In this document: positions 431-21,608 of the stretch, piece after piece
How the letters are laid out: every line of letters begins with the position of its first letter
How positions within the stretch are numbered: the first letter of the stretch is position 1
Virus record (IMG/VR): IMGVR_UViG_3300000101_000175
Span: 1 to 23,848 of that record
Reading direction: 5' to 3' (one strand)
Length of the DNA stretch: 23,848 nt
Origin: a virus
Notes under the pieces: model-generated
Told to the model about the DNA's origin: nothing
The model's database searches: none
What the model saw: the letters and a program-made list of their open reading frames with translations, nothing else
Translations under genes and position numbers: made by a program

Positions 431-1753
431 TTAGATTGCATGTTCAAACACTAGAGATTCTAGAGTGTTATAAGTATCTCCTATCTGACCTTTCACAGGA
501 TATTTCATAGCATTTTTAATGTCTACGAAAAACTGTTCGCCGTCAGAAGGGTTAAAATCGAATGTAAATGAATCGTAGGTGTATAGTACCAACTTAGATT
601 TATAACCACTCATTACTTTGAATACCTCTTTTAGTATCAAAACGTTGCTTTCCGTTTCCAGTGCTTGCAGATAATAATTAAACAGCTTTGGAGCGTTCAT
701 CTCCGTTAAATTGTCCGCATGTAACCTTCTTGTTAATAAGTATGTAGTTATAAACTTTTTCGACTTAAATTGTTTCCATAATTCGCGAGTAAATTCGTGT
801 ACTTTACCAAAAAACTCTATCTCACGCATCTCTTTAGGAATACCACCATAAATTATTTTGAAAGATAAAGCTTTAGATTCACGATATTCTTCTTCTGTAA
901 GTTCGTCTTTACCAAAGTACTGTTTACCAAGATATTCATGAACAGAAGTATCAGGAAATGTATAACCTACCACATCAGCCATTAAACGGATATGATATGC
1001 ATCAAAATCAAACTCTAATATTTTACCACCATCAAATCGACTAACGAATCTATCTCTTGAACCATCCTCTTTATTTAATGCAGCATAATTTATACCACCA
1101 TATCTATTAGATGGTCTACCAGTTGATGTATATGGATTATACTGTGTATACTCCATACCTTTTGTAGTATATAGACCAGCTTGCTCTATACCGTACAATA
1201 TATACAGCATATCTTCATTATATCTAGTGTATGAATTAGCCTGTTGCTTATCTTGCGTTATATACTGTTTGTACGTGATATCCTTAATGCTCCTGCATTT
1301 TTCCAGATGTTTATATAAAGGTATAACCGTGTTTACTCTTGGAAGACTTGAATACCTTCTTTCTATAAAGTCATGAGCTGGAGTTGTAATATGGGAAGTA
1401 TCAGTAGGTTTATTAGAGACAAACCAACCAGCCATATTCAAATCAATAATTTTACGTGAACGTTGTTTACTCCACTTAAAAGCGTGTAAAAACTCTTTTT
1501 TATCATTCACATAAATATAAGAAAATTTAGCTAGTATACCTTCGATTTGATCTACAGTAAATTGGATATCAGAATCTGGGTGATTGATAGGTATTATAAA
1601 ATCACGTTCCTTTGAAGCAATATATAGTAACGATAAGGTATTTTCATTAGGATGTTTGTATAAATCTGTAAATATAGGTATAGCGTATATCTCAGTTTGA
1701 GTTTGAGACAAATCAAAAATATCTAATATTGTACTTCGTGATTCTACTATCAT
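431..1753 (-). CDS. Family A DNA polymerase-like protein lacking a recognisable exonuclease
   Basis: Likely a template-dependent nucleotidyl transferase of 440 residues, about the size of a polymerase core plus a short N-terminal domain. Family A landmarks occur in order: TSTGRPSN (209-216), motif A EFDFDAYHIRLMA (247-259) with candidate metal ligand D249, motif B with K294, F298, Y302 and G303 in the canonical spacing, and motif C YTYDSF (391-396) with candidate metal ligand D394. Three usual residues differ. The motif A glutamate that gates sugars in Klenow polymerase aligns with H254, the motif C glutamate after the aspartate is S395, and the motif B arginine is displaced by one position. 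Residues 1-200 may be a degenerate 3'-5' exonuclease fold, but no DxE motif is visible. Family A polymerases without exonuclease are known from other phages, for example Rhodothermus phage RM378 (from memory). The gene stands directly after tail genes. A hairpin precedes the start and the ribosome binding site is weak. Family assignment is good; catalytic activity is inferred. Confidence 0.8.
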   Translation of the reverse strand: MIVESRSTILDIFDLSQTQTEIYAIPIFTDLYKHPNENTLSLLYIASKERDFIIPINHPDSDIQFTVDQIEGILAKFSYIYVNDKKEFLHAFKWSKQRSRKIIDLNMAGWFVSNKPTDTSHITTPAHDFIERRYSSLPRVNTVIPLYKHLEKCRSIKDITYKQYITQDKQQANSYTRYNEDMLYILYGIEQAGLYTTKGMEYTQYNPYTSTGRPSNRYGGINYAALNKEDGSRDRFVSRFDGGKILEFDFDAYHIRLMADVVGYTFPDTSVHEYLGKQYFGKDELTEEEYRESKALSFKIIYGGIPKEMREIEFFGKVHEFTRELWKQFKSKKFITTYLLTRRLHADNLTEMNAPKLFNYYLQALETESNVLILKEVFKVMSGYKSKLVLYTYDSFTFDFNPSDGEQFFVDIKNAMKYPVKGQIGDTYNTLESLVFEHAI

Positions 1754-5481: not shown

Positions 5482-8400
5482 CTATTTATTTATTGGTAAC
5501 TCAGCAAAGAAAGTTCCATCAGCTGTTTCTGGTGATACACCTCCACCTATATGTATACCTGCCATAGATGCATCTTTACCAAACACACTACTCATGTGTG
5601 GACCATCACCTATAACTGTAAACCCTAATGCTACTGATACAATCTGAGGTAACTGTGCTACTCGAGTTGATTCTTGTTCTAAATTTATCTCCCATGGATA
5701 ATCATTATCTACTGTAGTAGCTATAGAGTTAAAATATCCTGGACATCTAAACAGCCAATCACCCATGGTTAATTTAATTAGAGGAGCTATCATAGATTCC
5801 CGAAATGCTTGATTAGGTATAGTATCATTGTAATGTGGATATGCTAAACCGTATAAATAATTAATTTTCTTATACATAGGGACCATACCGATACGTGATA
5901 AAGATGCAAATTTTAAAGTGAAGGTAACTTCACGACTAGCACCACTATACGAGTGTACTTGATCTGGCCTTCCAACATACTGATTTTTAGTCCATTCAGG
6001 TGTTATTGTATCTGATATTTCAGACAAGTATGAACGGAAACGAACTATTTTTTTAGAGTCACCTACTGATGATGGTATATCTTCAACCATTAGTTTAATC
6101 ATATCACGTTGGCCATTTATTTCATCAGTCTGTACATCACCGTAATCTTGATCGAAATCTATATACTCATCCATACCATGATCTAGACGGAAGTTCTGAT
6201 CTTCACCATCTAGTGGTAAGAAGTTTCTATCTCTGTCAGCTCCATAAGGTGTGTAACCAAATTTAGCATCTCGACTATAATCACTATAAGGAAACGTACC
6301 ACTGTCACCTAGTGATAGCATGTCAGGGTTTGATCGAGTATCACCGATTTCTTCAAAAATATCTTCTCTAAAATCTTTAGCTACTCCTTCAAAACCTTCT
6401 CTGTTATCAGATGCCAAAGCTAAACCGTAATGACTTATAGTTGAATATTTAGCTAGCAAACTACTTCTACCACCTTGCCCTTCATCTTGACTACTTTCTA
6501 GAGATTCACCAGTTAAATGTTCACCTGCATTGTAATATCTTCGTATAGTTGTACCACCAATACCATATAACGATTTAGGTCCAGCAAAAGCGGTATCTGA
6601 TAGTAGATCTATTTTTTGACCTGTAAATCCTAGTAGATTCCCTAGACCTAAAAAGCCTCCAGCTCCATTACCTGAAGCTCCGAAGTGTAATTCATCTTTA
6701 AGACTCATTAACCTATTACGACCACCTTTACCTACTTTTGCAGGCCCAAATTCAGCTCTATCAGCATCGTAAGGGTTAATACCACTATGTGCTTTAACTG
6801 CAGTTTCATAAGTTGATTTATCTTCACCTATACCATTTAACAGTCCATGTCGATACAATTTAATACCAAACGGACCAGTTAACATATTAGCTAGAAGACC
6901 AATACCTAGATTAAATACTCGTGTTCGCCTGCCTAAGAATGCCATTTCAGTTTCAACTTTAGGGTTAGAAGCTTGAAGCCCTATCTGTTTGAGTCCCCAC
7001 AATAATCCTTTGATAGGATCAGAAATAATATGTTTTGTATTACGTACAACATCTAACAATGCTCTATTACCTAGAGTTAAAAATCCACCTCTGAAAGCTC
7101 CTTCATCAAACGGTGTACCTTCGTTAGAAAATCCATTCCATTTTTTACCTATATCTCTTAAAATATGAGGTTTTTTATATGATTTTAATCCTTTAGGATC
7201 ATCACCAGTTCCACCAAACGTTAAATCATGACCATAAGTACCATCAGTATCATAATCTATAGTTCTTGCAAATAATTCGTTTCTAACAAACCCTTCTCTT
7301 TGATTAGCTACACCAGCTGAACTGTAAGATAAATTTTGTGTATTGTAGTTCGGGTATCCATCTACATGAGTATAGTTAGCTACGACTGCTGCTTCACCAG
7401 TAGGACCAGTATTAGAAGGTATTAACACTTTTATACTATCTAGAGGTGAAGGTGAATGTTCTCTGCTGGCAAAGTTAGCTAGAACACTTTTTGGATGTGA
7501 TCCATTTAATTCAATATCCGCTTCAAAGTTACCTAAACTATTCTCATACTTATTACCTTCATTAAAATGTAATCTATTAGGGCTTGCATTATAAAGGTTG
7601 TATTGTACTGGATCAGTGCCTGCTAATTTATTTATTGTAATTTGAGGATTAATTGGTATCTGTTCTGCTAGAGATGAAATATACAATCCTCCATAAGGAT
7701 TACCAGCATCAGCAAATGGGACATCATACATTAACCTACCTGTCCCTGCAGGACCTACATCAGTTGGATATTCATATGTCAATGTACCAGGAGTACCTGC
7801 TACACCATTGAACTGGGTCTTAGGTAAACCTAAATCAAACATTTGAGGTGTAAATCCTTTAGCTCCAGAAGTTGTATCATCAAATGCATTAATTATACCA
7901 ATATCACCTGATGTGTTACCTCCAGAAGTAAATTCACCAAGACCGGTTGGATTATTACCCATTACTGGTACTTGACCTTGAACACCTCCGAACGTTGAGT
8001 GTGTAAATCCTTCTGTCTGTAAACCTATTTTACCTCCACCTGCAAAACTCTCTAAACTAAACTGAGAATCTTCTATTGGTTGATTTTGTACAAAACCATT
8101 AGGAAATAAAGGAGTTGTATAAGGAGTAGGATATGTATTAGTAAATAAACTGTTACCTATAAGGCCAAAACCTAAACCGTGATTATCTGGATATGTGTAA
8201 TCACCTGCTGTAGCTCCTTTAAATTGCGTAGGTGTACCTGTATCAAAAAATGTAGTAAATCCTTGAGCATCTAAGTTTTCAATATCTAAGAAATTAACAC
8301 CTTGACTTGAATCTACTGATCCATAACCTAGCTGCATAGAGTCAGGGTATGTATATGTTTGACCTGCTATCCCTTTAAATTGACTTTCTAATACAGAATT

Positions 8401-9360
8401 TTTAATTGTAAATCCTGATGTATTTACATTTGGTATATCTGTAAAATTTACTCCAGTTGTTGTGTCAATGCTACTTACCTCATGACGTCCAGTTAAAGTT
8501 GATATTATTGGAGCAGTATCTGACGATTCAAACCTACCAGTAAGTTGTGTTATAGCATCATCTATACCACTAGTTTCATGACGTCCAGTTAATACTGATG
8601 TCAATGGAGCAGTATCTGATGATTCAAATCTACCAGTAAGTGTAGATGTAATTGGAGCAGTATCTGATGATTCGAATCTACCCGTTAATACTGAAATAAC
8701 TGGTGCTGTATCAGAAGATTCAAATCTACCAGTTAGTGTAGATATTACTGGAGTAGTATCAGAGGATTCAAATCTACCTTGAAGTTGTGAAACTATAGGA
8801 GATATATCACTAGTATCAAATCTACCTGTTAATGTTGAGTTTATAGGTGCAGTTGTACTATCTATATTATTAGCACCTAGAACTGAAGTGAAAGGTGCAG
8901 TTGTACTGTCTATATTATTAGCACCTAAAACCGAAATTGAAGGTGCAGTTGCACTGTTTATGTTATTGGCACCTAACTGTGAAGTTAAAGGTGCAGTTGT
9001 ACTATTTGTGTTATTGGCACCTAGAGTTGAGTTTAAAAGTGCAGTATTAGATGATATATTGTTAGAACCTAGTATTGATCCCATAGGTGAAATATCAGAT
9101 TTCAATCTTGTTGTAAATGGAACTGATGATAAAGTTGGTATATCTGACTTCATTGCAGTGTTAAAGTTTACAAAAGGTATTGGAAATACATCTGATTTAA
9201 AGTTAGTAGTAAAAGATAATGTAGACATAGGAGCTATATCAGACTTCATATTAGTAGTAAATGCAGAAAATCCCATAGGTGCTATCAATGATGATTCATG
9301 TCTACCAGTTAATGTACCTGGTAAATTTATCTCGTTTGGTATGTTGTTTTCGTTTGCCAT
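5482..9360 (-). CDS. Very large tail/baseplate protein with N-terminal 16-residue repeat array
   Basis: A 1292-residue protein in at least four parts. Residues 17-304 are eighteen 16-residue tandem repeats in three subtypes (LTGRFESSDTAP, LGANNxxSTTAP and FTTNxKSDIxP). Residues 303-403 hold two copies of a 50-residue repeat (QFKG.AG...YTYPD), with a related segment near 500-545. Around 765-860 a helical block contains GLLWGLKQIGLQ and RVFNLGIGLLANMLTGPFGI, possibly packed inside the virion. Residues about 1075-1275 form a conserved-looking C-terminal domain with REVTFTLKFASLS, PLIKLTMGDWLFRCPG and VSVALGFTVIGDG. That domain resembles tail-tube-like or baseplate hub/initiator proteins in pattern, which is tentative. 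The ATG shares one base with the tape measure stop (TAATG) and has no visible Shine-Dalgarno, so translation probably depends on coupling. The position between tape measure and LysM-like baseplate gene supports a hub or tail-tip role. Confidence 0.72.
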   Translation of the reverse strand: MANENNIPNEINLPGTLTGRHESSLIAPMGFSAFTTNMKSDIAPMSTLSFTTNFKSDVFPIPFVNFNTAMKSDIPTLSSVPFTTRLKSDISPMGSILGSNNISSNTALLNSTLGANNTNSTTAPLTSQLGANNINSATAPSISVLGANNIDSTTAPFTSVLGANNIDSTTAPINSTLTGRFDTSDISPIVSQLQGRFESSDTTPVISTLTGRFESSDTAPVISVLTGRFESSDTAPITSTLTGRFESSDTAPLTSVLTGRHETSGIDDAITQLTGRFESSDTAPIISTLTGRHEVSSIDTTTGVNFTDIPNVNTSGFTIKNSVLESQFKGIAGQTYTYPDSMQLGYGSVDSSQGVNFLDIENLDAQGFTTFFDTGTPTQFKGATAGDYTYPDNHGLGFGLIGNSLFTNTYPTPYTTPLFPNGFVQNQPIEDSQFSLESFAGGGKIGLQTEGFTHSTFGGVQGQVPVMGNNPTGLGEFTSGGNTSGDIGIINAFDDTTSGAKGFTPQMFDLGLPKTQFNGVAGTPGTLTYEYPTDVGPAGTGRLMYDVPFADAGNPYGGLYISSLAEQIPINPQITINKLAGTDPVQYNLYNASPNRLHFNEGNKYENSLGNFEADIELNGSHPKSVLANFASREHSPSPLDSIKVLIPSNTGPTGEAAVVANYTHVDGYPNYNTQNLSYSSAGVANQREGFVRNELFARTIDYDTDGTYGHDLTFGGTGDDPKGLKSYKKPHILRDIGKKWNGFSNEGTPFDEGAFRGGFLTLGNRALLDVVRNTKHIISDPIKGLLWGLKQIGLQASNPKVETEMAFLGRRTRVFNLGIGLLANMLTGPFGIKLYRHGLLNGIGEDKSTYETAVKAHSGINPYDADRAEFGPAKVGKGGRNRLMSLKDELHFGASGNGAGGFLGLGNLLGFTGQKIDLLSDTAFAGPKSLYGIGGTTIRRYYNAGEHLTGESLESSQDEGQGGRSSLLAKYSTISHYGLALASDNREGFEGVAKDFREDIFEEIGDTRSNPDMLSLGDSGTFPYSDYSRDAKFGYTPYGADRDRNFLPLDGEDQNFRLDHGMDEYIDFDQDYGDVQTDEINGQRDMIKLMVEDIPSSVGDSKKIVRFRSYLSEISDTITPEWTKNQYVGRPDQVHSYSGASREVTFTLKFASLSRIGMVPMYKKINYLYGLAYPHYNDTIPNQAFRESMIAPLIKLTMGDWLFRCPGYFNSIATTVDNDYPWEINLEQESTRVAQLPQIVSVALGFTVIGDGPHMSSVFGKDASMAGIHIGGGVSPETADGTFFAELPINK
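8152..8454 (-). repeat. Two tandem ~50-residue coding repeats
   Basis: Residues 303-353 and 354-403 of the 1292-residue protein align as diverged copies. Both begin GVNF.DI.N, continue through GFT, then carry QFKG and a YTYPD motif followed by G.G. A third, more distant relative (GFTPQMF...TQFNGVAG...YEYP) lies near residues 498-545, around 7720-7870. The copies start exactly where the 16-residue array ends. Confidence 0.75.
8449..9312 (-). repeat. Eighteen tandem 48-bp coding repeats (16-residue units)
   Basis: Units begin at residues 17, 33, 49 and so on to 289 of the 1292-residue protein, without a change in register. Nine belong to the LTGR subtype (units at 17 and 177-289), four to the F-T-x-x-K-S-D subtype (33-81) and five to the LGANN subtype (97-161). 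Most share serine near position 8, proline at position 12 and a hydrophobic residue at position 1 or 2. Identical residues are often encoded by different synonymous codons, so the copies are not recent identical duplications. Confidence 0.92.
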
Positions 9361-12300
9361 TATGCGTTATAGTTTGCTTGATTTACTGCAGCTGATACTT
9401 TAGCTCCATCCATGTATACGTCACCTTTTTGTCCTGTTACCATAATTAGTTGTTCTAGAAGTTCTTCTACTCGACTCTTTCCACCTGAAGCTGGTTTCTG
9501 AGTTATTCCACCTTTTTTAGCTATCAAGTTGTCATCTTCATGTGTTTCAATCATTTGACCGTCTTTAGTTAGGATCATGTCATTTACTTTAGTAATAGGT
9601 GATTTAGCTGTTATACCACCTCTTTCTCCCATCATTTCAGCTGAATCGAGCATTTTTTTATCTAACCCCATGTTCATTTTAGCTTTATCGCTGACTTTCC
9701 CACCTGGAGGTACGTCAAATCCTGGATCTCCTTTTATTGAAAATCCATTTCCAGGGCTTTCAGGATTTTCAAATATAGTAAACCCATTAGCTATATTATC
9801 TTTCGCTGACGATAATTTATTACCAATATAACGGTTAAATACTGTTTTATCGATTTCATTACCTATATTTAAACGTTCTACTGTATGGAATCCCGTTCCA
9901 AGTACCTTCGCAGTTTTAGTACCTTTAATACCCAACTTGGTTGCAGCTGCTATATAACCAGCTCCTGGAATAGCGGCTGCTGTAGAGAGTGCTGCATGAG
10001 CATAGTTACCCTCTCTAGTGTATGCTGCTGCGTTAGCTAAATCGAAAACCCCTCCTACTATTGGAAGCAAACCAAGTAAATCAAGCGCTAAATGCATAGC
10101 AGGAGACATTGTATTATTTTCTTCTACCAATCCACCCAAACTCCTATTTCGTATATACGCCTGTATCTCTTTTTTACTCATACCACCTTTTTTCATTTCT
10201 TCAACTATTGGTACGATAGGGCCCCTATCTCTCATTTTCATATCCGCTTTCGACATACCTTGTTGAGGATTTAATAACCCACGAAGTGATTCGCTATCAA
10301 AATTGAATCCATATTTACCTGAATCAACCATTTTATTAATCGAATCATCCCTTCGAGTATCCATCATATAGCTAATTCTATCACCACCTTTTGTATTTCT
10401 AGTTGATAAAGGAAATATTTCACCTGCTGGTTTAGTTGCTACATTTTCTAATGGAGTTCCAAATGGGCCAATAGTACCCCCTGCTTCAAATTTACTGGTA
10501 ACACCTCCATCTCCAAATGCAACACCTCCACCAGCTTGATTCAACTGTGATAGTTGATCTTTAAACATGGCAGTAGAACGTTTATTGATTACTGCTTCAC
10601 CACCTTCTAGTTCACCATAACGAGTTGGAATACCACCATTTGCATGGGATGGTCCATAAGTTATACCACCATCAGCTAGAATCCCACCTGCAGCCTTGGT
10701 ACTTACGTCTTGAACGTTAACTACCTTACCACCATTCTTTCCAGGAACTATCGCATCATCTAACGTTCTAGCTTTATGCTGATCATCAATAATTCTATTC
10801 TCCAGAATTTGATTCTTTTCTTGATCTTTAGTATATTGCGTTTCTAATGTGTGTTCTAAACTACCTAAAATATCTTCAATAATATCTGCAGTTTTTGTTT
10901 CTGCTGAAGAGTAAAAGCTTTGATTATCGGCAGCTACTTTTATAGCTTTTTCAATTTGTTTAGTAGTTATTGACGTTATACCAGTTTGCTCTTTGATAAG
11001 GTCTTTAACAAGTGCTACGTATTGAATACTTTTACCTTTGTCGGTAGCGTCCGATTGATCCCCATAAGAGGCTGAAAATACATTGTATTTACTAATAGCA
11101 CCATGTTCTGCCACTGCTTCTTTAATTTCATCTTTAGTAATAATGTCCATTGAAACACTTTCCGCCTGAAGCTTCTTATGGTCAATATCAGCCTGCGTTT
11201 TATAATAACCTCCTTGTTGTTTAAGTTTTTCAATATTGTTTTGAGTTTCAGTAGCAAAGTCGTGAAGTTTAGTTGTAGCGCTACCGGTAGCTATATTTAG
11301 AAGATCTTGAGTTGATGCACCATTTGCAACAGCTGTTTTCCATTGTTTTTCGGTTACATAACCGGCATCTATCATCTTTTCCTTAAATTTTTGAACCCCT
11401 TTAGAGGAAAGATCGTCGGTACCACCTGCTAATTCTTGAAAGCTTTGATTTATTATATTATGATGTTTTTGCTCGGCCATACGTAGCTTGTCTTGCTCGC
11501 GTTGTTGTAATTTATCATATTTTGCCTGCTGCGTGACTAACCCTTTTCTTGCAGTATCTAATTTATCATCAAATATACTTGTTTCAGCTACTAAATAACC
11601 ACCTAGATAACCAAGACCAGCTCCAACTGCAGTACCTATACCTGGTAATATTGCAGTACCAATAGCTGCTCCAAGACCTGCTCCTACCATTTTTGAATTA
11701 GCTGCTCCTTTCTCCTTGCCTGTTGCATTACGTTTTAAAGTTGCAACATCATATATACTTTTACCAACTATAGCACCACCAACTGCGAATCCTCCTAAAG
11801 CCATACCAGCACTTGAAGACATACCACCCAATCCTGCAGGTCCACGAGCTCCTCCAAACATTTTAGAACCTATGTTTTGCATTACACCACCACCATACTT
11901 GTTGGCTGCAAATCGCTTATCTGGTAATCCACCTTTTGTAAGAGGTCCACTAAACATTTTTTTTAAACCACCAAACATACTACTCATACCGCTACCAGAC
12001 ATAGAAACAAACATTGGTGTTAAAGGTGTAGCACCTAGAAGCATTTTAGCTCCTAACAGTACAGCAATTCCTTTACCTATAGTTTTACCTACACCTTCTG
12101 CTTTTCCGTAACTTCCTGAAAAATCTTTAGATGCAAAGCTTTTAAGAAATCCACCAATTGCTCCTCCTGATAGTTTATCTATAAATGCAGCAGTACCCAT
12201 TACTGCGTCTTTAATACCTATTATTATACCTTTTATAGTATATAATAAATTTTTAAATCCGGTTTTAAAAGCAGGTGATTCTAGAAACTTGAAAAAGGTT

Positions 12301-13994
12301 TTTTCTAAATCTTTAAGCCCTGTACCAAATACATCCAGGAATAGATCACCAATAACTTTAGCTATACGCTCCATTACACCTAAACCAACATCTAATTTAC
12401 CTAACATTGGTAAAGCTTTTTCTGCTAGATCATATTGTTTCTGAACAAGGTCTTGTTTCATTTGAGCTTGTTTAGCTTCACGTTGCCTCTGTGCCGTAGA
12501 TTTTTGTAACTGACCTACCGTTAATCCCACTGCTTCTGCTAAAGCTCTTTGTTGATGGGGTGCCATTTTATTAAATTTGTCTAACCCACCAACCTGCTTC
12601 ATTACTTCTTCCATAGCTCCAGCTTCATCACCTTGCATAGCTAGCATTCTAGCTTTTTGGAAATTAAGGTCTAAACCTGTAATAAGCTGTGCCTCCATTT
12701 CTTTTTCTATAGAAGTTTCAAAGTCTAACAAAGCGCTAGATACTTTAGTCATATCATCTAATGTTAAACCTAAACGTCTAGCAGTTACTGCTGATTTAGC
12801 TAATTCATCAGCTGAACCACTAAATGATGCTAATGTATCTCCGGATGCTGAAGCAATATCTTGAAAAATAACTTGTGGATTTAACCCAGCTTGCTCTGAC
12901 ATTTGATATGTCATTTTAGTCATATTTACAGCTGCTTCATCTGTCATTCCACCAACTATAGAGAAGTTATCTAAAACTTTAGCCGATTCTTCATCACTTA
13001 ATCCTATAGATAGTTTAAGCTCCGCCATTGTTTTTACCAATTTACCAGATACATAATCGATCTTACCAAATTGACTTTCTAATGCTACAATAGCATCTAC
13101 AGAACCTTCTAAACTTGAAGAAAAGCCTTCACCCATTTCATAGAAACGTTTTTTAATTAAATCAGCTTTCTGCAATATCTTATCTTGAAACGGTCCAGCT
13201 CCAGCTAATTTTTTATTAACTCGATCCATCTCTTCAGCTAGTTCATTTCCACGCTGACGCATAGTTTCAAATCGTGATAGGCCTACTGCTAACAGTCCAG
13301 TAAATAAAGTCAAAGGATTGGTAACTATATCCTTAAGAGTACTAAATATTTGACTTGCTGCACCACCTTGATTCTCCATAAGGTCGGTTATACTACCTTG
13401 TATCTTCTCGATACGTTCATTCATCTGTTCTTGCTTGGAGAGAGCTTGATATCCCTTTTCCATAGTTTTTAAACTTGCTAGTCGCTGCTTTTCCTGTAGA
13501 TTAAGATTCTGTATACCTGTAACCTGCATTGCACCGATTTCTGCTTGAATACCTCTAATTTTATCTTCAAAAGGTACAGTTTTTTTACGAAAATCTAATA
13601 ATTCTTTACTTTTTTTAGCTACACCTGCTGCTTCTTGGTTATATGTTTCGTAATCTGATATAGTAGTTTTAAGGATGTTAGATTCTTCTAACGATAGATC
13701 TCTTGTAGCTTGCTTTTGCAATGCAACTATTTTTACTTGATTAGCCATAAAGCCTAGATTATCAAGCATCTTTTTTTCAATACCGTACATCTGATCTATT
13801 TCACGGCGTTGATTTTGCTGTAAAGAAAATATGGATTCCATTTCAGATGATATATCTACTAACTGAGCTCGTTTTTTTCCATAAAAATCCAACTCAGACT
13901 TCATATCAGCTGATGATGGGCCTGTGTAGTCTTGGGATGAGTCAGCTAGAGGGCTAACAACACGTCTTCCTTGATTTGCTTTCTTTTTAGCCAT
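9360..13994 (-). CDS. Tail tape measure protein
   Basis: Sets tail length and is packed inside the tail tube, from which it is released at infection. It is 1544 residues long, the longest protein here, and follows the tube and presumed chaperone genes. The first 215 residues are charged and predicted coiled coil. A hydrophobic stretch lies near 225-240, and a strongly hydrophobic glycine and alanine-rich segment at about 768-803 (GLGAAIGTAILPGIGTAVGA) could cross a membrane. Around 1116-1140 is the motif GGIPTRYGELEGGEAVINKR, which recurs in tape measure C-termini. Further hydrophobic stretches follow near 1300-1345. By the usual rule of about 0.15 nm per residue, the tail would be at most roughly 230 nm, much longer than T4's. 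The start is ATG with a weak ribosome binding site ten bases after the preceding stop. Its stop overlaps the next start by one base. Confidence 0.92.
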   Translation of the reverse strand: MAKKKANQGRRVVSPLADSSQDYTGPSSADMKSELDFYGKKRAQLVDISSEMESIFSLQQNQRREIDQMYGIEKKMLDNLGFMANQVKIVALQKQATRDLSLEESNILKTTISDYETYNQEAAGVAKKSKELLDFRKKTVPFEDKIRGIQAEIGAMQVTGIQNLNLQEKQRLASLKTMEKGYQALSKQEQMNERIEKIQGSITDLMENQGGAASQIFSTLKDIVTNPLTLFTGLLAVGLSRFETMRQRGNELAEEMDRVNKKLAGAGPFQDKILQKADLIKKRFYEMGEGFSSSLEGSVDAIVALESQFGKIDYVSGKLVKTMAELKLSIGLSDEESAKVLDNFSIVGGMTDEAAVNMTKMTYQMSEQAGLNPQVIFQDIASASGDTLASFSGSADELAKSAVTARRLGLTLDDMTKVSSALLDFETSIEKEMEAQLITGLDLNFQKARMLAMQGDEAGAMEEVMKQVGGLDKFNKMAPHQQRALAEAVGLTVGQLQKSTAQRQREAKQAQMKQDLVQKQYDLAEKALPMLGKLDVGLGVMERIAKVIGDLFLDVFGTGLKDLEKTFFKFLESPAFKTGFKNLLYTIKGIIIGIKDAVMGTAAFIDKLSGGAIGGFLKSFASKDFSGSYGKAEGVGKTIGKGIAVLLGAKMLLGATPLTPMFVSMSGSGMSSMFGGLKKMFSGPLTKGGLPDKRFAANKYGGGVMQNIGSKMFGGARGPAGLGGMSSSAGMALGGFAVGGAIVGKSIYDVATLKRNATGKEKGAANSKMVGAGLGAAIGTAILPGIGTAVGAGLGYLGGYLVAETSIFDDKLDTARKGLVTQQAKYDKLQQREQDKLRMAEQKHHNIINQSFQELAGGTDDLSSKGVQKFKEKMIDAGYVTEKQWKTAVANGASTQDLLNIATGSATTKLHDFATETQNNIEKLKQQGGYYKTQADIDHKKLQAESVSMDIITKDEIKEAVAEHGAISKYNVFSASYGDQSDATDKGKSIQYVALVKDLIKEQTGITSITTKQIEKAIKVAADNQSFYSSAETKTADIIEDILGSLEHTLETQYTKDQEKNQILENRIIDDQHKARTLDDAIVPGKNGGKVVNVQDVSTKAAGGILADGGITYGPSHANGGIPTRYGELEGGEAVINKRSTAMFKDQLSQLNQAGGGVAFGDGGVTSKFEAGGTIGPFGTPLENVATKPAGEIFPLSTRNTKGGDRISYMMDTRRDDSINKMVDSGKYGFNFDSESLRGLLNPQQGMSKADMKMRDRGPIVPIVEEMKKGGMSKKEIQAYIRNRSLGGLVEENNTMSPAMHLALDLLGLLPIVGGVFDLANAAAYTREGNYAHAALSTAAAIPGAGYIAAATKLGIKGTKTAKVLGTGFHTVERLNIGNEIDKTVFNRYIGNKLSSAKDNIANGFTIFENPESPGNGFSIKGDPGFDVPPGGKVSDKAKMNMGLDKKMLDSAEMMGERGGITAKSPITKVNDMILTKDGQMIETHEDDNLIAKKGGITQKPASGGKSRVEELLEQLIMVTGQKGDVYMDGAKVSAAVNQANYNA

Positions 13995-14003
13995 AGAATA
14001 CTA

Positions 14004-14252
14004 CTATATATCTCGACGAAGTCTATCTAGTTCATCTTTATCAAATAATGGATCACTATAATGTGATTGCTCTATAGATTTATTAAGAATATCTACTCTT
14101 TTTTCAAGATCTTTAGACATCTTATAAAGCTTAGGGTCAGTCTTTATTTTTTTATAATAAAGTAGTTTTGCAGCAGTATCTTTACCTACTAACGTTTTAA
14201 GAAGCCAGCTAAAAGCGCCTTCATTTATCTTATATTTTTTTGAATTGTCCAT
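14004..14252 (-). CDS. Small helical protein of unknown function before the tape measure
   Basis: An 82-residue protein beginning MDNSKKYKINEGAFSWLLKT. I choose the ATG at 14252 rather than the in-frame ATG at 14276 because an AAAGGGG ribosome binding site lies about five bases before it, inside the longer version. The sequence is charged and mostly helical: an amphipathic N-terminal helix (GAFSWLLKTLVG), then a likely coiled coil (SKDLEKRVDILNKSIEQ) and an acidic and basic C-terminus ending RLRRDI. There are no cysteines or signal peptide. It lies between the overlapping gp26-type pair and the tape measure gene. That position is where tail assembly factors are often encoded, so a chaperone or accessory role is a guess from context. 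I do not recognise the family with certainty. Confidence 0.75.
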   Translation of the reverse strand: MDNSKKYKINEGAFSWLLKTLVGKDTAAKLLYYKKIKTDPKLYKMSKDLEKRVDILNKSIEQSHYSDPLFDKDELDRLRRDI

Positions 14253-14270
14253 AGTATCCCCTTTACATAG

Positions 14271-14292
14271 TTTCACATATATAAATATGAAA
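14271..14292 (-). other. Intergenic hairpin upstream of the small helical gene
   Basis: An imperfect 22-base inverted repeat (TTTCATAT / ATATGTGAAA with one G-U pair on the minus strand) lies between the stop at 14305 and the ATG at 14252. Its core CATATTTATATATG differs by one base from the core of the hairpin at 15880-15899. No T-run follows, so it is not a typical intrinsic terminator. Confidence 0.4.
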
Positions 14293-14304: not shown

Positions 14305-14586
14305 CTACTGTTTTACTTTAGGGGGTCCAAAAACTTCTGATTTACCTGAATTGTGATTATCTTGCTTTTTTTGATCTTCTACCTGTCTGTTATTAATCTT
14401 CTCAATCTGCTTGAGATAGAACGTACGTAGATACTTAGGCATGTTGTAAACCTGATCATGGGTAAATCCACCTTTACCGTAATAACATAGCATGAAAACT
14501 TCTTCGTGTATAAGTGGTCTATGACTCGGAGCTAGGCCAAAAAAACCCGGTGTCGATAGGCATATCGACGTTCTCCGTGTGACCAC
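14305..14586 (-). CDS. +1-frame ORF overlapping the gp26-type gene; likely expressed by frameshift
   Basis: This 93-codon frame opens with GTG at 14586, deep inside the gp26-type gene. Residues 1-16 are only an alternative reading of that gene's conserved end, so I doubt the GTG is a real start. The protein-like part begins near RPLIHEEVFMLCYYGKGG (from residue 23) and runs through VYNMPKYLRTFYLKQIEKI to a polar lysine-rich tail. I recall similar HEE...YYG..F...VYNMP..LR.FY proteins following gp26-type genes in marine T4-like phages. The first ATG (14493, residue 32) falls inside this block, which argues against ordinary initiation there. The simplest reading is a C-terminal extension fused to the upstream protein by slippage on the T-run at 14539-14545, giving 338 residues. 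By position this would be a tail assembly chaperone like lambda gpG-T or a baseplate factor. The ORF is convincing; its mode of expression is inferred. Confidence 0.72.
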   Translation of the reverse strand: MVTRRTSICLSTPGFFGLAPSHRPLIHEEVFMLCYYGKGGFTHDQVYNMPKYLRTFYLKQIEKINNRQVEDQKKQDNHNSGKSEVFGPPKVKQ

Positions 14587-15322
14587 AAGCTTCGCATTCG
14601 AAGTTGAATTTAGTTATTACATCTGGAGCAGCTTCTTTCATTTCATTACGTAAAGCTAAAGAATCTTGAGCAAATAAATCATTATCTACATACTCTCTTA
14701 TTAGTTTAGTATCTCTATTACCGTCTACTGCTAGTATTTGATGCTTTAATCTTGTTGTAAGATTTTTACCTGGACCTTTTTTATTAGCAAATTTAGCTAA
14801 CCCTTTCATTTCACTTTCTAATGATTTTTCATCTCCACCTGACATTATTTTATATGTAATTGTGTTTTTAGATAATGGTAATTGGAAGTCAAATTCATTC
14901 GAATATTGCTTGAATTTATCGAAAGCTATTTCTTTGTTGTTTAAACCAGTTAAATCTATTTGTAATTTATTTTTTTCACCACATTTAGGGCAGTTGAGAT
15001 CAATATCATAATCTTTACCATAACCTAAAATTCTAGCCGCAATCATAATAGCATTTTTATCACCTACTAGTATATCATCATAACTAACATCAGTTACTAA
15101 TAAAGCGTTAATTAAGGTATCAATAACTTTACCTTGTCTAATAAGATTTGCGGAAGTAAGAATATCTTCTTCTCTTGCAGTCATGTATTTTAGTTCTACT
15201 TGACCAGAAGCTAAAGGGTGGTTTTCTGGATAGAACCACCCTTTGCTCGGAAGATCGATAAATTCGGTTGGAAATTTCTTTTTGTCTGTTTGTTTAGCCG
15301 TAACTTTACTGTTTTCGCTCAT
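14519..15322 (-). CDS. T4 gp26-type baseplate/tail assembly protein with four-cysteine site
   Basis: A 267-residue protein matching the pattern of the T4 baseplate (gp26-like) family. The diagnostic N-terminal segment is FIDLPSKGWFYPENHPLASG (21-40), followed by VELKYMTAREEDILTSANLI (42-61). Two CxxC pairs, C111/C114 and C243/C246, probably bind one zinc ion. The C-terminal half is charged. In T4 such proteins act in baseplate hub formation. Here the gene stands between tail tube and tape measure, the usual place of tail assembly chaperones, so it may chaperone the tape measure. The ATG follows a GAGGA ribosome binding site about ten bases upstream. The last codons are GGG TTT TTT TGG followed by five codons and TAG, and the next ORF overlaps in the +1 frame, suggesting a minority fusion product. 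Confidence 0.85.
   Translation of the reverse strand: MSENSKVTAKQTDKKKFPTEFIDLPSKGWFYPENHPLASGQVELKYMTAREEDILTSANLIRQGKVIDTLINALLVTDVSYDDILVGDKNAIMIAARILGYGKDYDIDLNCPKCGEKNKLQIDLTGLNNKEIAFDKFKQYSNEFDFQLPLSKNTITYKIMSGGDEKSLESEMKGLAKFANKKGPGKNLTTRLKHQILAVDGNRDTKLIREYVDNDLFAQDSLALRNEMKEAAPDVITKFNFECEACGHTENVDMPIDTGFFWPSSES
14536..14548 (-). other. Candidate programmed +1 (or -2) frameshift site
   Basis: On the minus strand the gene reads GGG TTT TTT TGG in frame 0, that is G259 F260 F261 W262 of the gp26-type protein; the seven T are at 14545-14539. If the tRNA on the second TTT moves one base forward it still pairs with TTT, and the next codon becomes GGC in the frame of the downstream ORF. 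The frame-0 stop comes only five codons after the TGG. A backward shift of two would add one phenylalanine. No strong stimulatory structure is evident by eye. Confidence 0.55.
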
Positions 15323-15355: not shown

Positions 15356-15370
15356 CTAATAATATATTAG
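15356..15370 (-). other. Short inverted repeat at the tail tube stop codon
   Basis: CTAATA / TATTAG forms a perfect 6-bp stem with a 3-base loop that includes the tail tube stop triplet. There is no following T-run. It may protect the 3' end of a processed tube message, or be chance in AT-rich DNA. Confidence 0.3.
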
Positions 15371-15855
15371 AACTGTAGTATTGCATAGTCGTATGCTAAT
15401 GTAATTGAAAGCATAAGCGCTGAATCTGTACTCCAATCTAAACTACCTTTAGCAGTTGATTGTACATAAGCGCCTTTCAATGTCCATTCTTCGACTTTAT
15501 CACCTACAGGACCTAACACATTAAAAGTAATGTCCTTTTTGTAGAAATCAGCATATCCGTCTCGACCAGTAACAGATTCGTGTGATAATCTAACCCATTC
15601 CATTACAGCTTGTGCTGCTGATGGAACTACTGGATCATATAAATCACATGTAATTGTACCCCAATCAGCTTTACCTTTAAGTTTACGTTTAACATTGATA
15701 TGATCTAATGTTACGTCACCAAAAGTTACTGATGGTCTGTCGATTTTTTTAATTAAATATGCAGGTATACCATCTATATACATGATAAACCTATTCTGCG
15801 TTTTCGGCTCAAATGCCGTGAACATTGCTTCTGTTGGGTCGATTAATTGTGCCAT
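15367..15855 (-). CDS. gp19: Tail tube protein (T4 gp19 family)
   Basis: Subunit that polymerises into the inner tube of the contractile tail. It is 162 residues, the usual size (T4 gp19 is 163). Visible family features are the N-terminal PTEAMFTAFEPKTQNRF (8-24), then IDGIPAYLIKKIDRPSVTFG, the HINVKRKLKGKADWG segment (52-66) and a C-terminal LDWSTDSALMLSITLAYDYA. These fit the beta-sandwich plus helix of phage tube and Hcp-like proteins. The ATG has a strong AGGAG six bases upstream. The gene follows the second sheath gene by 74 bases, a gap that holds a hairpin, and precedes the gp26-type gene. This order (sheath, tube, chaperone or baseplate, tape measure) is standard. Only one tube gene is present despite two sheath genes. 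Confidence 0.95.
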   Translation of the reverse strand: MAQLIDPTEAMFTAFEPKTQNRFIMYIDGIPAYLIKKIDRPSVTFGDVTLDHINVKRKLKGKADWGTITCDLYDPVVPSAAQAVMEWVRLSHESVTGRDGYADFYKKDITFNVLGPVGDKVEEWTLKGAYVQSTAKGSLDWSTDSALMLSITLAYDYAILQF

Positions 15856-15929: not shown

Positions 15930-18900
15930 TTATTCAGGGAATACCGCTCCTGTTGGTAAAATATTAAAGTCTAGTATAATAAATTCTGCTGATTTAGCTG
16001 GTTGCAAGAATATTTCACCGATCATTTGATTTCTATCAATTACATCAGCTGTGTTATTCGAAGCATCCATTATTACTTTGTAAGCATAAAGACCTTGTCT
16101 TTGTTGTACACTTTCAAAATATGGATTAGCTATATTTAAGAATCGCTGTCTAGTAGCAGATGTATTGTTTTCAAATACAAGGAACTTAGTTGCTGATGCA
16201 ATAAATTTCTTCGCTGCTATTAATAATCTTCTTACGTTAATTCTATCTAAAGCAGATGGTTTAGCTTGAAGTGTTTTTTGACCCCATATACAAATTCCTT
16301 CTTTGAAAGTTGCAATTGGATTAACTCTTCCTTCATATAAATCATCTCGTTCAGCATGAGTCAATCTAGTAGGTACATCTATAGCTTCCGTTAAGATACC
16401 TCTATTAAGACCTGCTGGTGCGAACCATTCAAACGATACTTGATCGTTTTTAGATATAACACCTGCCATTACCGTTGATGGTGGTACCCATACTGGTTTA
16501 TTTTTATCAGTATCAAGTATTTTAACCCATGGCCAGTATGTAGCTGTGTAGTTAGAATCTAAAGATTTAACTGTATTAGTTACCGTTGATATAGTAGTTG
16601 TATCATATCCTACTGCATCCATAATATATAAAGCGTCACCTCTGTTCTCACAAGTATTTTTAGCATGAGTTGTAACTACTGAGTGTAATCTGTGATTGAC
16701 ACCTGGAGTTACCATTAAGTTAATATCATACTCATCTGGATTAGATACCGCGTTTATAGCTCGTTTAAATGCTTTTGAACCATCTTTCTCTGCAGTTGAT
16801 AAATCAAATCCTAAGAAGTTAGTTGCTGTAATATTACTATCTCTTGCAATATAACGTGCTGGATTTAATCCGTCAAATCCTCCTTGGAATGGTACAATGA
16901 ATTTCTTAGTAGATAAATTAATTGTTGTTCCATCTGGCGTTATAGTATCACCTGCTCCTGAGTCTAATGATGCAGAAGGGTGTTGAGCACATTCAGAAAG
17001 ATTAAAGTGTTTGTTAGAACCTACTGCACTGTTATCACTTAAAGGTAATAGGTAATTATAGTTATCACTATCAAGGTAGTCAAATCCATAATGTATATTT
17101 TTATTATATACGTCATCTGCTACTTGAGATTTCTTAGTAAAGTGTGTCATAGTAACACCAGGTTGCGTTTCTGCATTTGTATGACCTACAAATGATGCAG
17201 TTGGTAAGTTACCGTGGTTAGCATGTAATGGTTCCTTCAATGCTTCAAAGCCGAAAGGTACTAAATCAGGTGATACACCTTGATCTTTAACTTCTTCTGG
17301 TACTTCTACCCATACATGATTTGATAAGTTTGGATAGTCACCAAATACTGTTACTTTACCATTTGCGTCAATTTCTTGATATCTATCACCAATTACACGT
17401 GCAATAAAGTTAGGTGAATTAGGATCTAAAGTTACATTGTTATACTGCTCTACTATATGTGGTCGTAAATCTTTATCAGTTGATTTAGCATAAGGCGTAT
17501 TAGCTGAATGTATAGTACCATCTAAGTCTACTCTTCTAATTGCTATTGAGAATGTACCATAATCACTACCTGCTACTGCATTAGGTGCTTTAACATTTGA
17601 TATAGCAACTTTATACTGATAATTACAAGAAGCACCATGAGATCTAGTATGGAATCTAAATAATCTAGTTGTTTTAGCTGCTTTATATGAACCTAAATTT
17701 TGAGATACGATAAAAGGTGTTCTTGCTTCATATCCATTTTTAGATGAATAAGCAAATGCAAAGTCATCTTGAATATTAGTTGCAGTTACAGTTAAATTAG
17801 CATTAGCACTAAATGATCTAGATGCATAATTTTTAAATAACATGTAATTGTATACTGGCTTATATCTATCTTTTGGAGTTATTCCAAATACTTTACCTAA
17901 CCACTGTTCTGAAGTTGAATCAATAGAACCTGAGTAAGTTGTATTAGAAGTTAATATATTGTTTGTATCTGTATGACCAGTTGTAAAGTTAGTAGTAGCT
18001 GTATAAGTTGCTACTCCGTCTCCAGCTGCATCATCAGTTAAGTATAGTGTAAATGACTGACCGTCAATTGAACCGTTAGTCCATTTTTGTATACCATGTG
18101 ATGGTTGTACTATCGAACCTGTAGTATTTGCTGCTCCTGTTCCAAATCCATTTGTTGGAGCTGCTACATCACCTGTAAATTTATTAAGAATACGTACAGA
18201 ATTTGCTTTGCCGCTGTTAGTATCAGTAATATCTTTATATGCACTTCCATGTGATCCAGAAGCTGCTAGAGAAGCAGAGAATAATGTTACACCTGATACT
18301 CTACTTGCAGTTACTGAGTTAATTGCATTACGTATTACGTTAATAATGGATGCTGAAACTGCACCGCCTGCTGCTGCAGTTGCTGGTATAGTAATTTCAG
18401 TATTAAATACTGTTCCTGCTGTATTTAAAGCTGCTTGTGCATTTGCATTATTACCATGATTTTGAGTACCTATACCGATAGAACCAGTAAAGTAGAAACC
18501 GTATTTTTGATTAGCTCCACCTGCTGGATCAGGAGATTCAAGTGCGAAGTAAGCTTCTGCAAATGATTTAGATAAAATAGAACCTGCACCGTATAAATAT
18601 AGATTAGTCTGTTCTGGTGTACCGTCGTTAAACTTAACTCCAAATTGTGCATCTGAATCTACTTGTGTTGGGTGTAATACTGCCCATGTATTACCTGAAC
18701 CACCTGCTGTTGCAAGATTACCTGAACCTGATTCAACTGCTTGAATACCGATAAGGTAAGGTGTGTATCCAGTTAAACCAAGTGTTCTAACTACTGTTAC
18801 TCTACCTGCACTCTTCAAATAAGCTTCAACTGTATACGGAACATAACTATCTAAAGTTTTAGGTCCAAATACAGCTTCAAATTCTTTGAATGATTCTATA

Positions 18901-19034
18901 ATTACTGGTTCAAACGCAGGACCTTTCACTGTTGGACCAACTATTGCTGCTCCTATTTGAGTGATCCCTGCTGGTAAGAAAGATAAGTCTCTTTCTCGTG
19001 TAAATACACCTGGGCTAACTATTTTTTCTGCCAT
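15930..19034 (-). CDS. gp18: Tail sheath protein, second paralogue, with long insertion
   Basis: A contractile tail sheath subunit of 1034 residues (T4 gp18 has 659). The N-terminus MAEKIVSPGVFTRERDLSFL is identical to that of the upstream paralogue. The segment AFEPVIIESFKEFEAVFGPK and the C-terminal FLVFENNTSATRQRFLNIAN, then EFIILDFNILPTGAVFPE, are typical of the sheath family; the conserved C-terminal domain assembles around the tube. Between HPTQVDSDAQF (about 120-131) and VFGITPKDRYKP (about 380) lies a stretch rich in alanine, serine, threonine, asparagine and glycine. It is roughly 175 residues longer than in the paralogue and probably forms an extra surface domain. An AGGAG lies about eight bases before the ATG. 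The gene follows its paralogue by 30 bases and precedes the tail tube. Sheath identity is secure; whether both paralogues enter one virion is unknown. Confidence 0.95.
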   Translation of the reverse strand: MAEKIVSPGVFTRERDLSFLPAGITQIGAAIVGPTVKGPAFEPVIIESFKEFEAVFGPKTLDSYVPYTVEAYLKSAGRVTVVRTLGLTGYTPYLIGIQAVESGSGNLATAGGSGNTWAVLHPTQVDSDAQFGVKFNDGTPEQTNLYLYGAGSILSKSFAEAYFALESPDPAGGANQKYGFYFTGSIGIGTQNHGNNANAQAALNTAGTVFNTEITIPATAAAGGAVSASIINVIRNAINSVTASRVSGVTLFSASLAASGSHGSAYKDITDTNSGKANSVRILNKFTGDVAAPTNGFGTGAANTTGSIVQPSHGIQKWTNGSIDGQSFTLYLTDDAAGDGVATYTATTNFTTGHTDTNNILTSNTTYSGSIDSTSEQWLGKVFGITPKDRYKPVYNYMLFKNYASRSFSANANLTVTATNIQDDFAFAYSSKNGYEARTPFIVSQNLGSYKAAKTTRLFRFHTRSHGASCNYQYKVAISNVKAPNAVAGSDYGTFSIAIRRVDLDGTIHSANTPYAKSTDKDLRPHIVEQYNNVTLDPNSPNFIARVIGDRYQEIDANGKVTVFGDYPNLSNHVWVEVPEEVKDQGVSPDLVPFGFEALKEPLHANHGNLPTASFVGHTNAETQPGVTMTHFTKKSQVADDVYNKNIHYGFDYLDSDNYNYLLPLSDNSAVGSNKHFNLSECAQHPSASLDSGAGDTITPDGTTINLSTKKFIVPFQGGFDGLNPARYIARDSNITATNFLGFDLSTAEKDGSKAFKRAINAVSNPDEYDINLMVTPGVNHRLHSVVTTHAKNTCENRGDALYIMDAVGYDTTTISTVTNTVKSLDSNYTATYWPWVKILDTDKNKPVWVPPSTVMAGVISKNDQVSFEWFAPAGLNRGILTEAIDVPTRLTHAERDDLYEGRVNPIATFKEGICIWGQKTLQAKPSALDRINVRRLLIAAKKFIASATKFLVFENNTSATRQRFLNIANPYFESVQQRQGLYAYKVIMDASNNTADVIDRNQMIGEIFLQPAKSAEFIILDFNILPTGAVFPE

Positions 19035-19064: not shown

Positions 19065-21608
19065 CTATTCAGGAAACGCTGCACCTGTTGGTAAAATGTT
19101 AAAGTCTAATACAATGAATTCAGCTGCTTTAGCTGGTTGCAAGAATAATTCACCTACCATTTGATTTCTATCAATTACGTCTGGTGTATTATTAGTTGCG
19201 TCCATTATTACCTTGAATGCGTATAATCCTTGTCTTTGTTGTACTGATTCTAAATATGGGTTTGCAATGTTCAAAAATCTATTTCTAGTTGCTGAAGTAT
19301 TGTTTTCAAATACTAGATATCTAGTAGCTGATGCAATAAACTTCTTAACTGCGATTAGTAATCTTCTAACATTTACTCTGTCGAGTGCTGAAGGTTTACC
19401 TTGAAGCGTTTTTTGACCCCAGATACATACACCTTGTCCAGGGAATGTAGCTATTGGGTTTACTCTACCTTCATATAAATCATCTCGCTCTTCATGAGTT
19501 ACTCTATCTGCTGTTTCAATTACTTCAGTTAAAGAACCACGATTTAAACCTGCTGGTGCAAACCATTCGAAAGCAACTTGATCGTTAAATGCTATTGCTC
19601 CTGGAACTACTACTGATGGTGGTACCCATACTGGTTTATTTATGTCTGTATCTAATATTTTAACCCATGGGTAATAAGTTGCTGCATAATTTGAATCAAA
19701 TGCTTTAACTGTATTAGTTACTGTATTAATAGAGTCACCGTACGCTGCTGAATCCATTACGTAGAATGCATCTCCTCTGTCTTCACATGTATTTTTAGCA
19801 TGTGTAGTAGTTACGGAGTGTAATCTATGATTAGCACCTGGTGTTACCATTAAGTTAATATCATATTCATCAGGATTAGAAACTGCATTAATTGATCTTT
19901 TATAAGCTAATGCACCATCTTTTTCTGCTGATGATAAATCGTATCCAAATAAATTAGCTGCAGTAATATTAGTATCCAATCCTACGAAACGTGCTGGATT
20001 AAATCCATCGAATCCACCTTGGAAAGGTATTACAAACTTTTTAGTTGAAAGATTTATTGTAGACCCTGCTGGGCTAACTGTATCACCTGCTCCTGAATCT
20101 AATGATGCAGAAGGGTGTTGTTTTTGATCGCTAAGATTAAATGCAGTATTATCTCCACTCGTTGTATCTGAATCTGGTAATGGTCGTAAATAATTGTGGT
20201 TATCAGCTTCAGTATAATCGAATCCGTAATAAACACTATTATTATAAACATTATCTAAAATTTGAGTTCTTTTAGTTGCAGAATGGTTGTGATGTCCAAT
20301 TGCTGATGCTGAAGGACAACCTGTAAATCCTGTATCAGGTAAAGGCTCTACTAATGCAGCGTATCCAAATGGAACTAAATCAGGTGATGTACCTTGATCT
20401 TTTACTGATTCAGGAACTTCTACCCATATATGACGTGATAGATTAGCATAATCACCATAAATACTAACTTTACCATTAGCATCAATTGCTTGATACTTGT
20501 CACCTATTACTCGTGCAATAAAATTAGGGGAGTTAGGATCTAGTGTTAAATTGTTAAATTGTTCTATAATTTCTGGACGTCTATCTGAATCACTAGATAC
20601 TGCAAATGGTGATAGTTGAGCATTAATTGTACCGTCAACATCTACACGTCTTAATCGTAGTGAGAAGGAACCGTAATCACTTCCTGCTACTGAACCTGCT
20701 GCTCTAATATTATCAACTACAATTTTAAATTCAAAGTTAGTAGCTGTACCATGTGCACGTCTATGAACTCTAAATAAGTCAGTAGTTTTACCACCTACTT
20801 TTTGTGAAGTAATAAATGGTGTTCTAGCTTCATATTCATTCTTATTAGTACTATACCCTGTAGTTAGATCAATAGTCTTTCTACCTCTTGTAGTTACACT
20901 TGTAATACCTTCTGCAGACGAAGCTGCGTTAGATCTTGATGCATGTGTACCAAAGAATAAGTAAGTATATAAAGGCTTTTTTCTATCTTTAGGTGTCTTA
21001 CCAAATACTTTAGTTACAAAGTTAGCTGATGTTGGATCTAGAGACATTGAGTATGCAGTAGCACCTGTTTTACCTCCTGTAAGATTTTCAAATCCAGTGG
21101 ATGCTCCAACTAAATCTCCTGTAATACCTACCGCTGTGTTAGTAGATGCATTGTAATCTGCAGCTGAAGCTGATAGATAAAATACAAATCCTGATCCAGA
21201 AGTATCATTTACTGAACCTGATATTACTGTAAATTTAGCATCTTCATCTACTATAGACGGATGAAATACTGCAGTTGTTTTACTAGTTGCTGTAGCGTGA
21301 GGACCATAATTAGATACAAGTTCTGCTACTTGAGCAGTATAACCTGATAATCCAAGTACTCTAACTACAGTTACTCTACCAGCACTACGTAAATATTGCT
21401 CTATAGTGTAAGGTACGTATGATTCTTTAGTTTTTGGACCAAATACTGCTTCAAATTCTTTGAATGATTCAATAATAGTTGGTTCAAATGCTGGTCCTTT
21501 TACGGTTGGTCCAATTACTGCAGCACCTATTTCTCCAATAGCTGCTGGTAAGAAAGATAAGTCTCTTTCTCTAGTAAATACACCTGGGCTGACGATTTTT
21601 TCTGCCAT
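19065..21608 (-). CDS. gp18: Tail sheath protein, first paralogue
   Basis: A contractile tail sheath subunit of 847 residues. It shares long near-identical blocks with the downstream paralogue: the first 20 residues, the ARVIGDKYQAIDANGKVSIY region, the STKKFVIPFQGGFDGFNPAR region, the GANHRLHSVTTTHAKNTCE region and the whole C-terminal domain ending AEFIVLDFNILPTGAAFPE. The two differ most in the central surface domain, which is shorter here (about 80 residues between HPSIVDEDAKF near 120 and VFGKTPKDRKKP near 203). Start is ATG with AGGAG about ten bases upstream. It follows a small coiled-coil gene by 22 bases. The pair most likely arose by tandem duplication in an ancestor followed by divergence of the exposed domain. 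Confidence 0.95.
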   Translation of the reverse strand: MAEKIVSPGVFTRERDLSFLPAAIGEIGAAVIGPTVKGPAFEPTIIESFKEFEAVFGPKTKESYVPYTIEQYLRSAGRVTVVRVLGLSGYTAQVAELVSNYGPHATATSKTTAVFHPSIVDEDAKFTVISGSVNDTSGSGFVFYLSASAADYNASTNTAVGITGDLVGASTGFENLTGGKTGATAYSMSLDPTSANFVTKVFGKTPKDRKKPLYTYLFFGTHASRSNAASSAEGITSVTTRGRKTIDLTTGYSTNKNEYEARTPFITSQKVGGKTTDLFRVHRRAHGTATNFEFKIVVDNIRAAGSVAGSDYGSFSLRLRRVDVDGTINAQLSPFAVSSDSDRRPEIIEQFNNLTLDPNSPNFIARVIGDKYQAIDANGKVSIYGDYANLSRHIWVEVPESVKDQGTSPDLVPFGYAALVEPLPDTGFTGCPSASAIGHHNHSATKRTQILDNVYNNSVYYGFDYTEADNHNYLRPLPDSDTTSGDNTAFNLSDQKQHPSASLDSGAGDTVSPAGSTINLSTKKFVIPFQGGFDGFNPARFVGLDTNITAANLFGYDLSSAEKDGALAYKRSINAVSNPDEYDINLMVTPGANHRLHSVTTTHAKNTCEDRGDAFYVMDSAAYGDSINTVTNTVKAFDSNYAATYYPWVKILDTDINKPVWVPPSVVVPGAIAFNDQVAFEWFAPAGLNRGSLTEVIETADRVTHEERDDLYEGRVNPIATFPGQGVCIWGQKTLQGKPSALDRVNVRRLLIAVKKFIASATRYLVFENNTSATRNRFLNIANPYLESVQQRQGLYAFKVIMDATNNTPDVIDRNQMVGELFLQPAKAAEFIVLDFNILPTGAAFPE

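Follow-up and report, generated by a model that had tools for sequence, protein, structure and literature searches.

Probable +1 ribosomal frameshifting in a T4 gp26-type gene, and related putative recoding sites in tail genes of T4-type phages

Closest described systems

Tail assembly chaperones of the lambda G/GT type are made by frameshifting (Xu, Hendrix and Duda 2004, as cited in PMC7230728; review, PMC5009743). The window analysed here is the whole 23,848 nucleotide stretch of viral DNA (IMG/VR record IMGVR_UViG_3300000101_000175), and it contains a gene of the T4 gp26 type (PF12322) overlapped at its 3' end by an open reading frame (ORF) in the +1 frame. Like lambda G/GT, this gene lies between those for the tail tube and the tape measure, the proposed shift is near the stop of the short form, and a short form would be accompanied by a long form that arises by frameshifting, is rarer (here by proposal) and ends in a small C-terminal domain. 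However, its family is that of T4 gp26 and not a described G family, and the shift is +1 on UUU_U rather than -1. The short form and the extension are referred to below as G and T.

In T4, where gp51 is essential but missing from the particle, both gp26 and gp51 are listed as chaperones of hub assembly (PMC3004832). Both match PF12322, as does the window gene, and an extra C-terminal piece of gp51 matches the T domain of cyanophages. Unlike the arrangement in the window, they are encoded separately, by genes on opposite strands that no frameshift links, and a 2016 review of recoding describes G-T frameshifting as widely conserved 'except T4' (PMC5009743). Our search of the literature on gp26, gp51 and frameshifting, which missed most subscription papers, found no report of frameshifting in the gp26/gp51 family.

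Three described +1 sites are relevant. The haloviruses of the HF1 group have a chaperone pair with a proposed +1 site, TTT_CGC (PMC7230728), and share with the window the +1 relation, a location between tube and tape measure and, near the first stop, UUU as the shift codon. However, their hosts are archaea, and HF2 did not match PF12322 and was rejected as a homologue, making the HF1-group site a parallel case by that test. The gene for release factor 2, prfB, shifts +1 at CUU_U or, in a minority of the species, at UUU_U (PMC5009743). In prfB and, by proposal, in the window, the P-site tRNA slips +1 on an NUU_U codon, but the UUU_U of the window has TGG and not a stop in the A site, no Shine-Dalgarno-like stimulator was found, and there is no autoregulation. 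Finally, influenza PA-X is made by a +1 shift at UCC_UUU_CGU (as cited in PMC7230728). A UUU_C shift followed by a CGN codon is also found in two relatives of the window gene, GiJojo (TTT_CGC) and GXN1 (TTT_CGT), whereas the window itself has UUU_U GG, and PA-X belongs to an unrelated gene translated on eukaryotic ribosomes.

The gp26-type gene and its neighbours

The features of the locus are listed in Table 1.

Table 1. Positions in the window of the gp26-type gene, its proposed slip site and the neighbouring tail genes
Feature	Position	Strand	Basis
gp19-type tail tube protein, upstream neighbour	15367..15855	-	PF06841 and phrog_4542
gp26-type gene (PF12322), zero frame, short form of 267 aa (G)	14519..15322	-	ORF and translation; PF12322 match
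Proposed slip site, TTT TTT TGG CCT	14534..14545	-	Sequence; conservation over relatives
Zero-frame stop TAG, six codons past the second TTT	14519..14521	-	Sequence
+1 frame extension (T), present only in the predicted 338-aa long form	14305..14538	-	Translation, weak DUF6760 match, structure prediction, purifying selection in the +1 frame
90-aa ORF between the T extension and the tape measure	14004..14276	-	ORF only
Putative tape measure protein, 1544 aa, downstream	9360..13994	-	Length and position; equivalent gene annotated as tape measure in immuto and SP-15

The gp26-type gene ends in GGG TTT TTT TGG CCT AGC TCC GAG TCA TAG, where GGG is codon 259 (14548-14546, minus strand throughout) and is followed by TTT (F260, 14545-14543), TTT (F261, 14542-14540), TGG (W262, 14539-14537) and CCT (P263, 14536-14534). 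The overlapping +1 ORF occupies 14305-14586 (minus) and its translation carries FGLAPSHRPLIHEEVFMLCYYGKGGFTHDQVYNMPKYLRTFYLKQIEK. As an earlier, sequence-only reading of this DNA had claimed, a conserved block begins upstream of the first ATG of this ORF; the coordinates, frames and product lengths (267 and 338 aa) given in that reading were also correct when the sequence and translation were re-read. With TTTT counted as one Phe step, the product is uninterrupted over 338 aa, and there is a single such step in the whole protein. The predicted junction peptide is TGFFGLAPSHR for a +1 shift and TGFFFGLAPSHR for a -2 shift. In-frame TTT TGG occurs once among the 7558 codons of the window, which is close to the number expected from codon usage, and it is thus conservation and not rarity that sets the site apart from chance.

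The short product matches PF12322 (T4_baseplate, the T4 gp26/gp51 family) with 52.6 bits against a cut-off of 24.5, as do 37 of 41 relatives, and it also matches phrog_150 (baseplate hub). The T domain scores 25 bits against DUF6760 (PF20546), which is a resemblance only as it is under the curated cut-off of 27; among 42 T-domain members, eight match DUF6760 at E<=0.01. Structure prediction gives a three-helix T domain, with high confidence across residues 11-60. For the long form, modelled from an alignment of standard rows only (four-letter-code rows were left out), the first domain is predicted with confidence, the linker with low confidence and the C-terminus as helical. This model had 61 matches at E<=0.001 in a fold search against viral models, and the named ones are mainly baseplate hub or hub assembly proteins. 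Against the PDB nothing was significant, the top match being the HK97 tail assembly chaperone 2ob9 (E=1.3), and the T domain had no significant match among the viral models. A search by sequence for solved structures found none for either domain.

The order tube, gp26-type gene, tape measure is also found in annotated cultured relatives. The putative tape measure of the window has no family match of its own that establishes its identity. The 90-aa ORF has no family match of weight, and a small ORF is found at the equivalent place in Microcystis phage Mel-JY01. Elsewhere in the window, two adjoining tail sheath genes (15930-19034 and 19065-21608, minus) encode 1034 and 847 aa; their products are near-identical over the first 22 residues and each includes both sheath domains. 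A 1292-aa protein (5482-9360, minus) contains many short repeats near its start (LGANN..STTAP, LTGRFESSDTAP), and the plus strand of this region opens a spurious 171-aa ORF. An ORF at 431-1753 (minus), adjoining the T4-type tail cluster, resembles family A DNA polymerases (31.1 bits, cut-off 34.3); the DNA polymerase of T4 belongs to family B.

Proposed +1 frameshift

We consider that this one gp26-type gene probably gives rise to a tail assembly chaperone in two forms through a programmed +1 ribosomal frameshift (a probability of about 0.88). The majority of ribosomes would terminate at TAG and release the short form. In a minority, the peptidyl-tRNA-Phe on the second TTT would move one base forward and re-pair on the overlapping TTT, so that T14539 would be skipped and GGC (14538-14536) decoded in place of TGG. 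Slipped ribosomes would then proceed through the predicted three-helix domain and complete the long form. If the lambda G/GT pair is a guide, the tape measure may be coated by many short forms, and a few long forms may recruit tube subunits. We infer the slippage, its efficiency and this division of labour from sequence comparison, and gene order together with the link to T4 gp26/gp51 suggests the role of tape measure chaperone for the gp26-type gene.

Three observations count against the +1 model. Stimulators were sought, and neither a Shine-Dalgarno-like element nor a consistent or strong downstream RNA structure was found. A hungry-codon model was rejected, as the codon in the A site, TGG, is at least as common as GGC, the codon read after the shift. 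The fold predicted for the long form, moreover, matches no solved structure significantly.

Conservation of the crossing

The survey covered 80 viral relatives sharing 45-100 % amino acid identity, and 36 representatives with the +1 relation were placed in a codon alignment. In nearly all of the 80, TTTTTTTGGCCT is kept and the second ORF lies in the +1 frame. The gp26 frame of L010 is broken early by a frame change, making this contig unfit for the site survey, and L053 and L074 end too soon to judge. A separate contig (L002) with 100 % amino acid identity has the identical T-run. The sequence-only reading had proposed alignment of homologous gene pairs as a check and loss of the T-run in relatives as a refutation. 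The site and the +1 frame relation hold across relatives with 45-86 % identity, and the run is either kept or swapped for another site that permits slippage.

Counts from the codon alignment make no correction for common ancestry and should not be taken as probabilities. All 36 representatives have CCT as the Pro codon that follows TGG, while CCT makes up 25-56 % at other conserved Pro columns. Such fixation would be expected if these bases are also translated, as GGC CTN, into Gly-Leu in the +1 frame. TTT serves as the second Phe codon in 36 of 36 and as the first in 35 of 36. However, as Phe is mostly TTT elsewhere (384 TTT to 104 TTC overall, and TTT at 79-97 % in other conserved Phe columns), the invariant second TTT is weak evidence on its own. 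The +1 ORF is conserved as protein, with substitutions clustered at its own third codon positions (6, 5 and 26 at first, second and third positions in L003) and many changes that are synonymous in its frame only, consistent with purifying selection in that frame. Thus, a conserved out-of-frame C-terminal extension that only a frameshift would reach, as in lambda G/GT, is present in the window gene and in its relatives.

An out-of-frame extension at the equivalent point was also found in cultured phages of Flavobacterium, Microcystis, Bacillus, Listeria, Streptococcus and Streptomyces. Four annotated genomes, immuto (L082), Mel-JY01 (L083), SP-15 (L084) and GiJojo (L090), list the gp26-type gene with the T ORF separate or truncated and no long form. 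In the jumbo phages Atu_ph07 (L086) and 121Q (L091) an out-of-frame T ORF follows the gp26-type gene, and no tube or tape measure annotation was seen beside this gene in the stretch looked at. The only bacterial or archaeal carriers found were two MAG contigs, labelled bacterium (L186) and Woesearchaeota archaeon (L187), with ordinary copies of the site (TTT TTT TGG CCT) and a +1 T ORF that does not match DUF6760. These are probably binned phage contigs.

Direction of the shift and alternative explanations

The seven-T run of the window would equally allow a -2 shift, in which the tRNA would leave the second TTT and pair again two bases further back in the run. Pairing would be complete, the resulting frame identical and the long form one Phe longer (GFFFGL), and the window alone cannot discriminate between the two directions. 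The presence of TTT as first Phe codon in 35 of 36 representatives also suits a -2 shift, as a +1 slip, which involves the second codon, could do without it. However, L021 and L022 (TTC TTT TGG), SagM-GXN1 (TTC TTT CGT) and GiJojo (CTG TTT CGC) retain the frame relation with one slippery Phe codon. There, a -2 move would place the Phe tRNA on TCT or TGT with a mismatch at the middle base, whereas a +1 move re-pairs well (on TTT or TTC). The +1 direction is therefore better supported, and we regard -2 as improbable. This bears out the one-base forward slip on TTT, with GGC replacing TGG, that the sequence alone had suggested, and it is the site variants that favour +1 over -2. In immuto the site is CTT_TGG, like the CUU_U of prfB. 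For SP-15, LIS04 and GXN1 it is less certain which codon slips, because NCC CGA is found just downstream.

It is very unlikely that the second ORF is an ordinary separate gene, with an internal start or coupled to the upstream stop. The window does have possible starts on both sides of the crossing (GTG, 16 codons upstream; ATG, 15 codons downstream), there is an ATG near the gp26 stop in cyanophages, 121Q and Atu_ph07, and LR756511 looks like a case of re-initiation. However, neither start in the window has a Shine-Dalgarno-like sequence, use of the ATG would remove conserved residues, and 12 representatives have no ATG, GTG or TTG upstream of the middle of the conserved domain. A well-placed separate start, which had been named as grounds for refutation, is thus absent in many relatives. 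The conserved extension starts exactly at the T-run in every lineage, and in 15 representatives the +1 frame is open for just 3-5 codons upstream of GGC, so that the crossing must fall within the few codons that surround TTT TTT TGG. Homopolymer runs of this kind can support transcriptional slippage, and fusion through mRNAs with extra or missing bases has to be weighed against ribosomal +1 slippage, since two T gained or one T lost in the seven-T run would restore the needed frame. We give this explanation just as little credence as that of a separate gene, since L021, L022, GXN1, GiJojo, immuto and LR756508 keep the frame relation without a long run, and lineages with a -1 relation have correctly phased ribosomal heptamers. 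In this metagenome contig the site consists of a homopolymer of seven bases, and an assembly or sequencing error there could split one continuous gene. This possibility, also raised by the sequence-only reading, is excluded for practical purposes, as the relation is present in independent contigs and in complete cultured phages, some of them lacking the homopolymer, and the zero frame retains TGG CCT with a stop soon after.

-1 heptamers in other lineages

The second ORF of the window is in the +1 frame, and the site is thus not a canonical -1 heptamer (X_XXY_YYZ). Such heptamers are found in some relatives and in loci of the cyanophage type. In L050-L053 and L069-L070, AAATTTC is in the phase A_AAT_TTC, with the second ORF in the -1 frame in those loci that are long enough to judge. 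These loci form one clade (100/100) nested in a supported group in which all other members are +1, indicating that the direction was switched while the fusion was kept. The cyanophage-type gp26 genes end with T_TTT_TTC in 82 of 82 cases, ahead of a 57-aa 'gp51', and the codon that provides the first T varies (AGT, AAT, TCT or GCT) but always ends in T. Re-initiation is possible for this second ORF, as a start codon is close to the stop. In 121Q and Atu_ph07, T_TTT_TTC precedes the stop and the start codon overlaps it, so that both frameshifting and re-initiation are possible. Across T4-type phages there appears to be a common scheme, with +1 shifts on UUU_U, UUU_C or CUU_U, -1 shifts on A_AAT_TTC or U_UUU_UUC, and two paralogous genes in T4.

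Relationship to T4 gp26 and gp51

T4 gp26 and gp51 both match PF12322 (8e-65 and 2e-53, respectively) and are paralogues. For each of the following profile comparisons the E-value is that of a single comparison. The match of gp26 to gp51 has E=7e-23 over approximately 195 residues, and that of the gp51 C-terminus to the 57-aa cyanophage 'gp51' has E=8e-13. The T domain of the window family matches the cyanophage T domain (E=7e-5) and the gp51 C-terminus (E=1e-3) in matching register, though both values are modest. T4 gp26 looks like G alone and gp51 like G plus a T domain in one frame, in which case gp51 would be the equivalent of the long form.

We therefore think it likely that T4 is no exception to the G/GT arrangement, with gp26 corresponding to G, gp51 to a duplicate with T fused in frame, so that duplication would have replaced frameshifting, and the cyanophage 'gp51' to the T part only, reached by a -1 shift from gp26. 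This reading of the two proteins fits what is known of T4, where both are listed as hub assembly chaperones and gp51 is essential yet not in the particle. The T4 proteins are on very long branches of the tree, and their placement was not used.

Implications

Few recoding events in tailed phages are as well conserved as the frameshifting of tail chaperones, and the exception given in a standard review (PMC5009743) is T4, the contractile phage that has been studied most. The findings reported here would bring the gp26/gp51 family inside the rule and offer a testable role for gp51. They also suggest that several cultured phages, including immuto, Mel-JY01, SP-15 and GiJojo, have been annotated without their long form. 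Beyond what the sequence-only reading had proposed, the arrangement is found in many phage groups, some lineages have -1 heptamers, and gp51 looks like an in-frame long form. Together, these would form a natural series in which the fusion protein is conserved while the mechanism that produces it varies between +1 shifts, -1 shifts and gene duplication.
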